From NCBI RefSeq assembly GCF_015732155.1, contig NZ_WIQK01000001.1:1684001-1748000 (forward strand): DNA of 64,000 bases, given 5' to 3'. Positions within the stretch are counted from its first letter, which is position 1, and every line of letters starts with the position of its first letter. Both the position numbers and the translations under genes were made by a program. The notes under the pieces are model-generated. The model saw only the letters and a program-made list of their open reading frames with translations. It was not told where the DNA came from and did no database searches. Below, one piece after another: positions 12,182 to 29,697 of this stretch. This stretch comes from Pectinatus sottacetonis (lineage in GTDB: Bacteria; Bacillota; Negativicutes; Selenomonadales; Selenomonadaceae).

Positions 12182-13360
12182 ATGATTAGTGTTACGAAGT
12201 TATTGTTTGCTACAGATTATTATGGTGATAGTCTTCGCTATACAAGAGATGCCCGGGAGGCTAAAAATGGTGTACATGAAGGGGCTGGTCCAGTTGTAGT
12301 ATGGAACTGTACCCGCACCTGTAATTTGAAGTGCCGGCACTGTTATATGGATTCAGATGAAAAAAAATATAAGAATGAATTGAGTACAGCTGAGGGCATG
12401 AACTTTATAGATGATTTGGCAGAGTTCAAAGTCCCGGTTTTATTATTTTCTGGCGGAGAACCATTGATTCGTCCTGATTTTTTTGAGCTTGCAGCATATG
12501 CGGCTGAAAGGGGGATAAGACCTACTCTTTCTACCAATGGTACCCTTATTACACGTGAGTATGCCCAGAAAATTAAAGACATAGGGGTAGGATATGTAGG
12601 AATATCCCTCGATGGACTTCGTACCGTCAATGATAAATTCAGAGGAAGACAGGGTGCTTTTGCAGCAGCGATGAAAGGCATAGAAAATTGTGTTGCCGTG
12701 GACCAGCGTGTAGGTCTTCGCTTCACGATAAATCAGCATAATCTGCAGGAACTGGAAAATATATTTGATTTTATCGAAAAAGAAAATATAAACAGAGTAT
12801 GCTTTTATCATTTGGTTTATTCGGGGAGAGGAACACAGATGATGAATGAAGATGTACTGCCACAGCAATCACGACAGGCCATGGATATCATCATAAAAAG
12901 AACCCGTGATTTCGAACGGCGCGGCTTAAAAAAAGAAATTCTTACAGTAGATAATCATTGTGATAGTGTTTATATGTATTTAAAGGCACTTAGTGAAAAT
13001 AATAAGGAATTAGCTGAGCAAATTAAAAAATACGCATTTTTTAATGGGGGAAACCGTTCTGGTATTGCCTTTGGGGAAGTAGATCCAATGGGGTATGTTC
13101 ATCCTGATCAGTTTACCCAATATTATACGTTTGGCAATGTTAGAGAAAGAAAATTTGGTGATATTTGGTGTGATACATCTAACCCAATTATGGCAGGATT
13201 GAAAGACCGCAAACCGCTCTTAAAAGGTCGCTGCAGTAAGTGTAAATTCATTGAGGTCTGTAATGGCAATTTCAGGACACGAGCGGAAGCAAGAAATGGA
13301 GATTTCTGGGAAACTGATCCATCCTGTTACTTGACTGATAAAGAAATCGGCATTGAATGA
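12182..13360 (+). CDS. Radical SAM protein NirJ1/AhbC-like (heme biosynthesis)
   Basis: A 392-residue radical SAM enzyme. The [4Fe-4S] triad is C47-x3-C51-x2-C54 (CNLKCRHC). FSGGEPLIRPD and STNGTLI are the SAM-site motifs. Near the C-terminus GYVHPDQFTQYYTFGNVRE followed by a Cys cluster (CSKCKFIEVC) matches the NirJ/AhbC family. AhbC removes acetate side chains from didecarboxysiroheme on the siroheme route to heme. In bacteria without cytochrome cd1 a NirJ1/NirJ2 pair is thought to serve that route. It is followed directly by its NirJ2-like partner. No ahbA/ahbB is present here, so the pathway call is inference. Confidence 0.82.
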   Translation: MISVTKLLFATDYYGDSLRYTRDAREAKNGVHEGAGPVVVWNCTRTCNLKCRHCYMDSDEKKYKNELSTAEGMNFIDDLAEFKVPVLLFSGGEPLIRPDFFELAAYAAERGIRPTLSTNGTLITREYAQKIKDIGVGYVGISLDGLRTVNDKFRGRQGAFAAAMKGIENCVAVDQRVGLRFTINQHNLQELENIFDFIEKENINRVCFYHLVYSGRGTQMMNEDVLPQQSRQAMDIIIKRTRDFERRGLKKEILTVDNHCDSVYMYLKALSENNKELAEQIKKYAFFNGGNRSGIAFGEVDPMGYVHPDQFTQYYTFGNVRERKFGDIWCDTSNPIMAGLKDRKPLLKGRCSKCKFIEVCNGNFRTRAEARNGDFWETDPSCYLTDKEIGIE

Positions 13361-13403
13361 GCGAATGTCCGTTGCTATATCAAGTGTAGATGAGGGAGAT
13401 AAT

Positions 13404-14402
13404 ATGATAATTTCTTGGAATACGACAAATGCGTGTAATATGTACTGTGAACATTGTTATCGTGATGCTGGATGTAAGGCTGATGAAGAGCTTAGTACAA
13501 GCGAGGGCAAAAGACTTTTAGAACAGATAGCTAAAGCAGGATTTAAGATAATGATATTTTCTGGGGGAGAACCCTTAATACGTCCAGATATTGTTGAACT
13601 TGCTGCTTATGCTGGAAAACTAGGGCTTCGTTCAGTTTTTGGGACTAATGGTACTTTAATAACAGAAGAAATGGCACAAAATTTAAAAAATGCTGGTGTT
13701 ATGGGAATGGGAATATCACTCGATTCCATGGATAAGCAGAAGCATAATAAATTTCGTAATTTTGCTGGAGCATGGGAAGGTGCTGTAAGGGGGATGAGAA
13801 ATTGCCGTAAGGCAGGTCTGCCGTTTCAAATACATACTACGGTTATGGACTGGAACCAGCATGAGCTTGAAGATATAACTGACTTTGCAGTGTCGGAAGG
13901 TGCTGTGGCTCATCATTTCTTCTTTTTGGTTCCAACAGGACGGGCAAAAACAATTGAAGCAGAATCATTGCGGGCGCGTGCATATGAAGATGTGTTGACA
14001 AGGATAATGAAGAAGCAGCAAGAAGTAAAAATAGAATTAAAACCTACTTGTGCACCGCAGTTTATTCGTATTGCAGATCAGATGGGGGTAAAGACAAGGT
14101 TTCACCGTGGTTGTCTGGCCGGGACATCATACTGCATAATAAGTCCGCGTGGTAAAGTACAGCCATGTGCCTATTTAAATATGGAGCTTGGTGATGTACG
14201 CCAGACACCCTTTGATGAAATTTGGAAAAATAGCGATGTGTTAAATAAATTGCGGACATTTGATTTTAAAGGTGAATGTGGGACTTGCAAGTATAAGCGT
14301 TCATGTGGTGGATGCCGGGCCAGAGCAGCTTATTACCATAACGGGGATTATATGGCAGAAGAACCGTGGTGTCTGTATCATGGACGCGAAGGACAGATGT
14401 AA
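13404..14402 (+). CDS. Radical SAM protein NirJ2/AhbD-like (heme biosynthesis)
   Basis: About 332 residues. The radical SAM Cys triad is C11-x3-C15-x2-C18 (CNMYCEHC), with FSGGEPLIRPD. A C-terminal SPASM-type cluster (CGTCKYKRSCGGCRARA) supplies an auxiliary Fe-S centre, as in AhbD/NirJ2. AhbD converts Fe-coproporphyrin III to heme by oxidative decarboxylation. The open frame reaches back to a TTG at 13353, overlapping nirJ1. The ATG at 13404 has GAGGGAG 5 nt upstream and starts the conserved MIISWNTTNACN block, so I place the start there. It is probably co-transcribed with the preceding gene. Confidence 0.82.
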   Translation: MIISWNTTNACNMYCEHCYRDAGCKADEELSTSEGKRLLEQIAKAGFKIMIFSGGEPLIRPDIVELAAYAGKLGLRSVFGTNGTLITEEMAQNLKNAGVMGMGISLDSMDKQKHNKFRNFAGAWEGAVRGMRNCRKAGLPFQIHTTVMDWNQHELEDITDFAVSEGAVAHHFFFLVPTGRAKTIEAESLRARAYEDVLTRIMKKQQEVKIELKPTCAPQFIRIADQMGVKTRFHRGCLAGTSYCIISPRGKVQPCAYLNMELGDVRQTPFDEIWKNSDVLNKLRTFDFKGECGTCKYKRSCGGCRARAAYYHNGDYMAEEPWCLYHGREGQM

Positions 14403-14414
14403 TAAAAAATACTA

Positions 14415-14443
14415 TTGACAAAATGTTGATGTGGTATTATAGT
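14415..14443 (+). promoter_or_regulatory. Promoter of the T-box/BASS transcript
   Basis: Perfect TTGACA (14415-14420), 17-nt spacer, TATAGT (14438-14443). Transcription would start near 14450, just before T-box stem I. Confidence 0.8.
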
Positions 14444-14449
14444 TATTAA

Positions 14450-14753
14450 CTAATGACGATGTGTAAAGTTGTTAGGAAAAATAATATAAATCCGATGATG
14501 GGAAAGAGTAATCATATCATAGTTGAATTACAGAGAACCGGCTCTAGGCTGAAAGGCTGGTATTCAAAGATTGATGAAAATCATCCCAGAGGAAAGATAC
14601 TGAAGTTAGAATTAGGTGTCTGCGATTGATCCCCGTTAGAGGAAATGCGTATGTTAGTACGTGATGAGTGCCATGTAATCGTAAGATTATATGGAATTTG
14701 GGTGGTAACTCGGAAATATAATCCGTCCCTTGTTTTAAGGGGCGGATTTTTTT
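14450..14753 (+). ncRNA. T-box leader (probable tRNA-Met) before a BASS transporter
   Basis: The T-box sequence GGGTGGTAACTCGG (14700-14713) can form the antiterminator. It precedes a terminator with a stem over ATCCGTCCCTT and its complement (14721-14747), then seven Ts. Upstream, GATGAT (14494-14499) pairs with ATCATC (14580-14585) to close stem I, with an AGAGTA motif on the 5' side and a GGCT-rich distal arm. The 3' side of the specifier loop reads GATGAAA, making AUG (14574-14576) the best specifier. The bulge UGGU predicts a tRNA discriminator A, as in tRNA-Met, and argues against the overlapping Asp or Glu codons. The T-box call is firm; the specifier is tentative. Confidence 0.85.
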
Positions 14754-14896
14754 ATTTATATTTTGGGTATAAAAGACAAATAATATGGCTATTAAAAAAT
14801 GATGCCGATAATTGTCTTTTAAGTATATAATTTTCTGTAATTATTTTGGCGCGCGAAATAATCAACAGATGTGATTTTTTGAAGAGAGGTATTGCC

Positions 14897-15892
14897 ATGA
14901 ATTTTTTAAAAAAAATAAGTACATTTTTAGCAAAAAATACTACTACGTTGATTGTGTTAATCGCCATTATTGCCTTTTTCTTTCCCTATTTATTTGCATG
15001 GGTACGGGGAAATATACAGATTGTTGTTTTAGCAGTTATTATGTTTTCTATGGGAGTTACGATAACCACAGCAGACTTCAGGCTTTTAGCGAAACGTCCT
15101 TTTGACATATGTATAGGAGCTGTTGCCCAATTTACTATTATGCCTTTTGTAGCTTATTTTATTGCGGAATTATTTAATTTACCGACGGATATTGCTTTGG
15201 GAATAATTCTTGTGGGCTGCTGCCCGGGAGGAATGTCGTCCAATATAATGACTTTTCTGTGCAGGGGAGATGTTCCTTATTCGGTAGGAATGTCGACAGT
15301 ATCTACGTTACTGGCACCGTTAATGACACCTTTTCTTGTATTAATGCTGGCAGGACAGAGAGTTGCTATTCCTACGATGGGAATGTTTATAACTATTATG
15401 GAAGCAGTATTGGTACCGGTGCTTTTAGGATTTTTTCTGAACTATAAATTTAGTAAGAGTGATACATTTGAACAACTGCAAGGGATTATGCCGGGAATTG
15501 CTGTTATCGGTTTTGCCCTTATAATCGGAGGGGTAGTGTCAGTTCAAGGGGCAAGATTTTTTACGTCAAGCTTGGTTATTTTTGTAGTTGTGGCAGCGCA
15601 TAATGCTATTGGATTTGTCTTGGGATATGCTGTAGGCAAGGGCTTTAAGTTTTCTCTGGCCAAGAAACGTACACTTTCGATTGAAGTCGGGATGCAGAAT
15701 GCAGGATTGGGTACAAGTCTGGCTATGGCTCATTTTGCAGCTATACCGCAGGCAGCAGTTGTTACAGCAGTAGCCTGTGTATGGCAGTCAATAGCGGGAA
15801 CGGCATTGTCAACACTGTTTAGAAAGTATGATGATAGAAAAATGACAAAGACAATCAGCGTTGGGAAAAAACAACAGGTTTCTGTCCAGTAA
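14897..15892 (+). CDS. Bile acid:sodium symporter (BASS) family transporter
   Basis: About 331 residues with 9-10 hydrophobic segments. BASS-family features include MFSMGVTITTADF near the N-terminus, VGCCPGGMSSNIMTFLCRGDVP (the Na-site unwound helix) and GMQNAGLGTSLA late in the protein. Family members carry bile acids, pantoate, 2-keto acids and other organic anions with sodium. Control by a T-box with a probable Met specifier suggests methionine or its keto acid as substrate here (inference). The frame opens at TTG 14846, but ATG 14897 has GAGAGG 7 nt upstream. A terminator follows at 15958. Confidence 0.88.
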   Translation: MNFLKKISTFLAKNTTTLIVLIAIIAFFFPYLFAWVRGNIQIVVLAVIMFSMGVTITTADFRLLAKRPFDICIGAVAQFTIMPFVAYFIAELFNLPTDIALGIILVGCCPGGMSSNIMTFLCRGDVPYSVGMSTVSTLLAPLMTPFLVLMLAGQRVAIPTMGMFITIMEAVLVPVLLGFFLNYKFSKSDTFEQLQGIMPGIAVIGFALIIGGVVSVQGARFFTSSLVIFVVVAAHNAIGFVLGYAVGKGFKFSLAKKRTLSIEVGMQNAGLGTSLAMAHFAAIPQAAVVTAVACVWQSIAGTALSTLFRKYDDRKMTKTISVGKKQQVSVQ

Positions 15893-26659: not shown

Positions 26660-27026
26660 AAACATACTGATGATAATAGCGATGAAGAAGAGGGCACGGA
26701 CGGAACGGTACAGAGAAAAATCTCCTAGTATGACTGCACTGACTTAAGTGATTATAAATGTGGATGTATTATGATGTTAACAATTAATCGGGGCAAAATA
26801 ATATATTATTTTGCATTTTTAAGTTATAGCCATGACTGCTTAGCTGAAAGAGATTTACGTAGAAGTTTGTTGTTGTAGCTTTAGAGCTTTTGTAGTGAAA
26901 ATAGTAGCTGCAGACGTTAACACGGCGTTAAGTGTTTAAGCTTTGTATGCGTATATAATACAAAGAAATTTAGGTGGTACCACGGAAGTATACTCTTTCG
27001 TCCTATGAGGGACGAAAGAGTTTTTT
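26660..27026 (+). ncRNA. T-box leader of valS
   Basis: The T-box core AGGTGGTACCACGG lies at 26972-26985. It is followed by a perfect terminator stem CTCTTTCGTCC (26993-27003) with GGACGAAAGAG (27010-27020) and six Ts. The UGGU bulge fits the discriminator A of tRNA-Val. GCGATGAAGAAGAG near 26680 marks the start of stem I, and a TATAAT lies at 26647-26652. I could not identify the Val specifier with confidence because stem I is atypical. Confidence 0.88.
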
Positions 27027-27042: not shown

Positions 27043-29697
27043 ATGCAGGATGTTAGTATTCCAAAGGTCTACGACCCGCAGAGCTTTGAAAAAAAATGGT
27101 ACAAATTTTGGGAAGATAATAAATTATTTCATGCTGAAGTAGAAAAAGATAAAAAACCTTATAGTATAGTAATACCACCACCAAATGTAACGGGACAGCT
27201 GCATATGGGACATGCCATGGATAACACTATCCAGGATATTCTGATTAGATTTCACCGGATGCAGGGATATAATACATTATGGATGCCAGGCTGTGATCAT
27301 GCAGGAATCGCTACACAGGCAAAGGTGGATGCAGCACTAAGAGAAAAAGGAACATCCCGGCATGAAATAGGCAGGAAAAAATTTGTTCAAAAAGCATGGG
27401 AATGGAAAGAAAAGTTTGGCAATCGAATTATGTATCAACTGCGTTCTCTGGGATCTTCATGTGACTGGGACAGGGAACGTTTCACGATGGACGAAGGTTG
27501 TTCCAAGGCTGTTCGGGAAGTTTTTGTTAAGTTATATGAGGAGGGCCTAATTTACCAGGGAACACGAATTACGAACTGGTGTCCGCACTGTAATACGGCT
27601 TTGAGTGATATAGAGGTGGAACATAAGAATGAAATGGGACATTTGTATCATATCCGTTACCAGATAGAAGGCACGGATAAATACATTGAAATTGCCACGA
27701 CCCGTCCTGAGACCATGTTTGGTGATACCGGGGTTGCAGTTCATCCTGATGATGAGCGTTATAAGAACTTAGTAGGCAGCGTGCTGATACTACCGTTGGT
27801 AAATCGTCATATTCCATTATTTGCTGACAGCTATGTTGACCCTGATTTTGGGACAGGAGCAGTAAAAGTTACACCGGCGCATGATCCCAATGACTTTGAA
27901 ATGGGTCAAAGGCACAGTTTGGAACAAATCCTTGTAATAAACAGCGATGGAACAATGGCACAGAATACGGGAAAATATGCGGGGATGGATCGGTATGAAT
28001 GCCGTAAGAAACTCATAAGTGATTTACGAGAACAAGGATATCTGCTGGGAATTGAAGAACATGAACATGCAGTGGGGCATTGTTCACGGTGTGATACTAC
28101 AGTTGAACCAATGGTTTCCAAACAATGGTTTGTGAAAATGGAATCACTGGCGAAACCGGCAATTGAAGCAGTAAAAAGTGGTAAAATTAAATTTGTACCG
28201 GAACGGTTTACCAAAATTTACTGTAACTGGTTAGAAAATATTCGGGACTGGTGCATATCACGTCAATTATGGTGGGGGCATCAGATCCCGGCATGGTATT
28301 GTCAGGATTGCGGAGAAACTATTGTTTCTCGCGAAAATGATATCAGTATTTGCCCAAAATGCGGCGGCCATAATTTAAAGCGCGATGAAGATGTCCTGGA
28401 CACATGGTTTAGTTCTGCTTTATGGCCATTTGAAACAATGGGCTGGCCAGAACAGACAGAAGAATTGAAACAGTTTTATCCAACTAGTGTTTTGGTTACC
28501 GGTTATGATATTATTTTCTTCTGGGTTGCCAGAATGGTAATGATGGGATTGAAATTCGGTGGTGATATTCCTTTTAAACATGTTTTTATTCATGGATTAG
28601 TCCGCGATTCACAAGGACGTAAAATGAGTAAATCCCTGGGTAACGGAATAGATCCCGTGGAAGTAGTTGAAAAATATGGAGCCGATACTTTACGGTTTAT
28701 GCTGATAACAGGTAATACTCCGGGCAATGATATGCGTTTTTATTGGGAAAGAGTAGAAAGCGCTCGTAATTTTGCCAATAAATTGTGGAATGCATCACGG
28801 TTTATGCTGATGAATTTAGAAGAATATGATAAAGGATTTATTCCCGATGATGCTGAATATACATTAGCTGATAAATGGATTTTAAGTTGTTATGCTCATA
28901 CAGCAGAATCAGTAACAGGAAATTTGGAAAAATTTGAGTTGGGAGAAGCAGCAAGATCTCTTTATGAATTTATCTGGAATGAATTTTGTGACTGGTATAT
29001 AGAATTAAGCAAGGCACGGCTGTATGATAAGGAAAATCCGTCAAGAAAAGTAGCACAATATGTGTTAAGCTATGTATTAGAGCATACTTTGCGGTTACTG
29101 CATCCGTTTATGCCATTTATCACAGAGGAAATCTGGCAGCATATTCCCCATGAGGGAAAGAGTATAATGGAAAGCAGTTGGCCAGAATATGAGGCAGATA
29201 GAATTGATGACAGTTCAGAAAAAAATATGACAGCTGTAATGGAAACCATAAAAGTAATCCGCAATATGAGGGCAGAAGTTAATGCAGCCCCCGGCAAAAA
29301 AAGTGAAGTGATACTCAATTTCAGTGATGAAAAAACACAAGCGATTTTTATTGCCAATAAGGAATATTTAACAGTACTGGCAGCCGCTCAACCAATTACC
29401 GTATGGAAGAATGGCAGTGCCAAACCAGAAAATGCTATGACAGCTGTAGCAGAGGGAATTGAAATATATTTACCATTGGCTGGACTTATTAATGTTGATA
29501 AAGAAATGGGACGGCTCAACAAAGAAAAAACAAAATTGGACAAGGAAATAGAACGATTGGCTAAAAAGCTTTCAAATAAAAGCTTTTTGGCCAAAGCTCC
29601 AGCCGAAATAGTAGAAAAAGAAAGGGAGAAGCAAAAAAGCTATATGGATAAAAGGACATCTGTTAATGACCGATTATCTTATTTAGCGGATTTGTAA
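27043..29697 (+). CDS. valS: Valyl-tRNA synthetase
   Basis: An 884-residue class I synthetase. The HIGH motif appears in [13 protein letters not shown], the KMSKS loop in [11 protein letters not shown], the editing domain around [17 protein letters not shown], and the C-terminal coiled-coil tRNA arm begins near [11 protein letters not shown]. The open frame reaches back to 26974 through the T-box and terminator, but that is not coding. The ATG at 27043 follows AGGAGG by 6 nt. Expression should respond to uncharged tRNA-Val through the leader. folC follows after 5 nt. Confidence 0.98.

Follow-up and report, generated by a model that had tools for sequence, protein, structure and literature searches.

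The locus described here lies in a window of 64,000 nucleotides (the whole stretch of DNA analysed) and comprises a T-box leader followed by a gene for a transporter of the BASS (SLC10/SBF) family. Its features, in order along the forward strand, are as follows.

14415–14443, + strand: sigma-70-type promoter TTGACA-17-TATAGT (11/12 matches; assigned by consensus match only)
14486–14733, + strand: full-length T-box leader (Rfam RF00230)
14574–14576, + strand: AUG taken as specifier by the initial annotation; falls on the upper helix and the GAA of loop E in the Rfam alignment, outside the specifier
14580–14582, + strand: specifier codon AUC (Ile), in the register of 11 sibling T-boxes and invariant in 13 BASS T-boxes
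14700–14730, + strand: antiterminator element (Rfam alignment)
14703–14706, + strand: T-box bulge UGGU, complementary to ACCA of tRNA-Ile(GAU) (Rfam alignment and host tRNAs)
14720–14748, + strand: intrinsic terminator hairpin of 13 pairs, then a U-run (folding energy)
14897–15892, + strand: BASS (SLC10/SBF) transporter gene, 331 aa (Pfam PF01758; tree; pocket residues)

The leader matches RF00230 with 128.4 bits (gathering score 93; E 3.6e-28) and covers the model end to end, positions 1–219 of 219, from Stem I to the antiterminator. It is the only RNA-family match in the whole window at gathering threshold. The terminator has a predicted folding energy of −18.8 kcal/mol (z −4.75), with equally stable folds in 0/200 shuffles, and is mutually exclusive with the antiterminator, AATCCGTCCC being common to both. 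The full-length covariance-model match, the promoter, the terminator and the BASS gene downstream bear out the original proposal that a T-box controls this gene. A palindrome-like sequence, ATTATTTTGGCGCGCGAAATAAT, is situated at 14840–14862, downstream of the T-box terminator and ahead of the start codon of the BASS gene; it has no other exact match in the genome, a similar sequence occurs at a locus of the same genus (L015), and it may serve as an operator or as a further control element. Directly upstream of the leader, adjacent radical-SAM genes at 12182–14402 score above the NCBIfam cut-offs of NirJ1 and NirJ2, putative heme d1 biosynthesis proteins, and probably form an operon separate from the T-box unit.

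The specifier was calibrated on the other T-boxes of the same genome. The host carries 13 T-boxes, 12 with a readable specifier, and 11 of these precede genes of recognisable function, named by eye from the translated proteins rather than by family search. At one place in the alignment the siblings read CUC (leuA), UAC (aroF), UUC (pheA), AUC (ilvD), ACC (thrS), CUC (leuS), UUC (pheS), UGG (trpE), AUC (ileS), GGC (glyQ) and GCU (an aminotransferase operon). Codon and amino acid of the gene agree in 11/11 cases, the aminotransferase operon being the least certain. In the Rfam alignment, the sibling codon is the triplet that ends one spacer base ahead of the lower helix, and is often preceded by GAA. 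At this place the BASS leader has GAA-A-AUC-A-UCCC, that is, the loop-E GAA, one A, AUC, a further A and the UCCC helix, and therefore specifies isoleucine. The TBDB rule, which takes bases 2–4 of the specifier bulge, counted from its 3′ end (PMC7778990), also yields AUC, the specifier of 99% of isoleucine T-boxes in that database (PMC7778990). On these sequence comparisons, the leader is almost certainly an isoleucine-responsive T-box. The frames AAU (Asn) and UCA (Ser) do not fit the calibrated register, and G73 is found in tRNA-Asn and in the one tRNA-Ser examined; GAA and AAA are likewise off register, and AUG (Met) as specifier is rejected on the sibling calibration and on conservation. 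Sibling T-boxes of a single genome can thus calibrate a specifier that is easily misread by eye.

Discriminator bases were compared with the bulges in the same way. Host tRNAs for threonine and glycine have U73 and their leaders UGGA, tRNA-Trp has G73 and the trpE leader UGGC, and the isoleucine, leucine and phenylalanine tRNAs have A73 and leaders with UGGU. The UGGU of the BASS leader is therefore consistent with isoleucine, but also with methionine and glutamate. The initial annotation had read this bulge as favouring methionine over aspartate and glutamate; it is present and argues against aspartate, but it does not exclude glutamate or single out methionine, because A73 is common to six host tRNA types (Ile, Met, Glu, Lys, Phe and Leu). 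Within the host genome, the leader most similar to the BASS T-box is that of ilvD (68% identity, any other pair reaching at most 56%), a likeness that suggests duplication inside the isoleucine regulon. Elsewhere in the window, a divergent T-box at 26832–27008 (L012; 64.9 bits, below the gathering score) carries UGGU and lies 5′ of a valS-like gene that starts at 27044. Its Stem-I-like sequence AGCGATGA starts near 26678, so this leader may exceed its Rfam match.

The leader recurs upstream of related BASS genes. Among 120 further genomes of the host's taxonomic family, nine hold close BASS relatives (about 55–88% identity); of the ten members of this close clade, the window's included, six have an upstream T-box and four have none. 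A scan of the GTDB species collection added 80 loci (L074 duplicates L016), with Rfam-supported T-boxes at six, L078, L079 (Anaerobutyricum hallii), L084, L087, L089 and L134, and a T-box recognised by motif and alignment only at L085, an Eggerthellaceae MAG. Twelve BASS genes besides that of the window are thus preceded by a T-box, in the same family, in Lachnospiraceae and in two further lineages. Across the 13 BASS leaders AUC and the UC that follows it are invariant. What the sequences themselves show is the presence of the T-box, the AUC in its specifier position and the fact that both are conserved.

The distribution is patchy. Three Lachnospiraceae loci (L076, L080, L081) have no T-box, most of the 90 clade rows belong to phyla where the T-box was not seen, and the close clade occurs in only 2 of 398 sampled genomes of the phylum (E below 1e-92). 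The same-family orthologs without a T-box (L017, L019, L020, L021) have a common short leader with a hairpin, GGACAAATATATGTCC, just 5′ of the ribosome-binding site, suggesting that other control replaced the T-box there. T-boxes accompany 6/10 clade members versus 0/20 PanS-like paralogs in the family (Fisher p 3.5e-4, an indicative value, since the sequences are related and non-independent and the 20 paralogs were screened by motif, not covariance model). Gene-neighbour clustering at 74 of the 80 loci found each neighbour family at 7 loci at most, and hence neither a conserved neighbour nor a substrate hint.

The gene at 14897–15892 is the first to follow the leader on its strand, and its product is an SBF-domain protein (Pfam PF01758, 1.1e-40). 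The AlphaFold model of this protein (mean pLDDT 80.9) has as best Foldseek match ASBT_NM (8oyf; E 2.3e-21, TM 0.76–0.80), which is the nearest solved structure, with about 44% identity in the structural alignment. The protein scores below the NCBIfam cut-off for TIGR00841 and reaches 199.2 bits against a cut-off of 400 for the PanS equivalog NF047939. In a tree built by a quick method with SH-aLRT support only, the T-box-associated proteins fall within one group of 89 rows, split at 100% from 20 PanS-like paralogs and ASBT_NM. The clade comprises about 90 sequences, most of which come from MAGs of rumens and hindguts, and is spread over gut and rumen members of Bacillota, Bacteroidota, Verrucomicrobiota/Kiritimatiellota, Fibrobacterota and Spirochaetota. 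To our knowledge, only a minority of bacterial BASS proteins have an assigned substrate.

Pocket residues were compared over 90 clade rows (one a duplicate) and 20 same-family paralogs. Pantoate is contacted in ASBT_NM by the main chain of T112/A113 and by N265, G267, H294 and N295 (PMC10645422). In 90/90 clade rows T112 is hydrophobic (V/I/M/L), S266 is replaced by A and N295 by S, whereas all three are unchanged in 20/20 paralogs; I203 is L or F in the clade. Asn265 is universal in the clade rows, a single row departs from Gly267, and most rows retain H294. The window protein has M, N, Q and S at T112, N265, H294 and N295, a set that differs from the PanS-type contacts. The asparagine lost in the clade contacts the pantoate 4-hydroxyl in ASBT_NM, and the one retained, Asn265, is used there for the 2-hydroxyl and is thought to disfavour 2-keto acids (PMC10645422). 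Na+ ligands of ASBT_NM include Ser114/Asn115 (PMC10645422). In the window protein the Na1/Na2 site residues Q78, S115, N116, S129, S133 (T in most), E263 and Q267 are present, and the Na+ ligands are kept in 88–90 of 90 clade rows and in the paralogs too. The remaining ligand positions are those generally described for ASBT_NM.

The best overall explanation, to which we assign a probability of roughly 0.6, is an isoleucine T-box that switches on a BASS importer of an isoleucine-skeleton acid during starvation. The leader would act by transcription attenuation, with uncharged tRNA-Ile(GAU) as the ligand whose anticodon pairs with the Stem I specifier AUC. Pairing of the uncharged ACCA end with UGGU would then form the antiterminator and allow transcription of the BASS gene, and with charged tRNA-Ile the terminator would form, so that the transporter would be made when isoleucine is scarce. 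Because the gene would be on at isoleucine starvation, import of isoleucine or a precursor would be its natural role, and the transporter very likely serves isoleucine supply. The regulation is well supported; the substrate we infer.

The protein is predicted to mediate Na+-coupled uptake of a small branched carboxylate built on the isoleucine skeleton, which the cell would then convert to isoleucine. Described BASS substrates, namely pantoate, pyruvate, glycolate, 2-keto acids and bile acids, are carboxylates without a free amino group (PMC10645422); this, the loss of N295 and the retention of Asn265 favour a 2-hydroxy acid whose branched tail resembles that of isoleucine. Candidates are 2-hydroxy- or 2-oxo-3-methylvalerate and 2,3-dihydroxy-3-methylvalerate, the IlvD substrate, which by our own calculation is an isomer of pantoate (both C6H12O4). 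The suggestion of the initial annotation that the substrate may be an amino-acid-derived acid is in keeping with this reading, methionine excepted. We put the chances that the substrate is a hydroxy or oxo acid, and not isoleucine itself, at about even. The isoleucine pathway of the host appears complete (ilvA-type, ilvB-type, ilvC and ilvD), and its genome also encodes two BrnQ-family carriers, neither among its listed T-box genes; the need for another importer is therefore less evident, which counts against the reading. With this pathway, these carriers and also panB and panC present, the BASS carrier would be a salvage route. Two adjacent ORFs elsewhere in the host genome (G000:C1:1788958-1790141) match citramalate synthase-like proteins, the first over the C-terminal and the second over the N-terminal part, a split that resembles that of homocitrate synthase (NifV omega/alpha).

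Among the alternatives, the least improbable, though still unlikely, keeps the isoleucine T-box and makes isoleucine itself, or all branched-chain amino acids, the cargo. Transporters under T-boxes usually carry the sensed amino acid, including isoleucine T-boxes on LIVCS and ABC carriers (PMC2494555), but the amino-group-free BASS substrates and the BrnQ-family carriers already in the genome speak against it. Still less probable is 2-methylbutyrate, which is a precursor of isoleucine in rumen fermentation (PMC7356843), made into it by rumen bacteria via reductive carboxylation, and which would fit a clade from rumens and hindguts. This acid, however, has no oxygen at position 2, the group through which pantoate touches Asn265 and Gly267 in its complex; the clade retains these residues, and no neighbour of any kind is conserved. 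A PanS-type pantoate or ketopantoate carrier that came by chance under an isoleucine T-box is slightly more doubtful again: the kinship to pantoate-binding ASBT_NM and the retention of N265 and, mostly, H294 are set against the replacement of T112, S266 and N295 in every clade row, the PanS score of half the cut-off, the PanS-like paralogs that form a separate clade without T-boxes, and panB and panC, with which the host can probably make its own pantoate. A methionine-specific T-box on an importer of methionine or its keto acid, as the initial annotation proposed, is highly improbable: GATGAAA does occur at 14573–14579 and A73 of tRNA-Met fits UGGU, but its AUG lies six bases upstream of the calibrated specifier in the upper helix/loop-E strand, not in the specifier position, is found in 2/13 BASS leaders (the window and L016 only) versus 13/13 for AUC, and is absent from that place in the ilvD leader.

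If the isoleucine T-box reading holds, BASS would join the transporter families known under T-box control, which in the survey of Wels 2008 comprise only MFS, APC, NSS, DAACS, LIVCS, NhaC and ABC, with BASS absent (PMC2494555). No published link between a T-box or riboswitch and BASS was found in the openly licensed papers searched, and TBDB may contain BASS leaders without comment. The conserved isoleucine T-box provides a direct and testable physiological lead for a whole protein clade that occurs in common gut bacteria, such as Anaerobutyricum hallii, and suggests that bacteria of guts and rumens use the transporter to acquire isoleucine or a precursor of it. More tentatively, this unnamed BASS clade may be a dedicated importer of isoleucine-skeleton 2-hydroxy/2-oxo acids, under isoleucine T-box control where T-boxes exist.

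Compared with known systems, the protein shares with plant BASS5, a carrier of 2-keto acids in the methionine chain-elongation route, the BASS family and a possible branched or keto-acid substrate. The parallel drawn to BASS5 by the initial annotation is nevertheless weak: keto-acid BASS carriers have Ser in place of Asn265 and Gln in place of Thr112 (PMC10645422), unlike the Asn and V/I/M/L of the clade. ASBT_NM, ASBT_Yf and PanS resemble it in fold, Na+ ligands and Asn265, with about 44% identity to ASBT_NM, and differ at positions 112, 203, 266 and 295, in their separate clade and in the PanS cut-off that it does not reach. In its complete architecture, AUC specifier, UGGU bulge and terminator, the leader is like the isoleucine T-boxes of ileS and the ilv genes; unlike these, it has a BASS transporter gene downstream.
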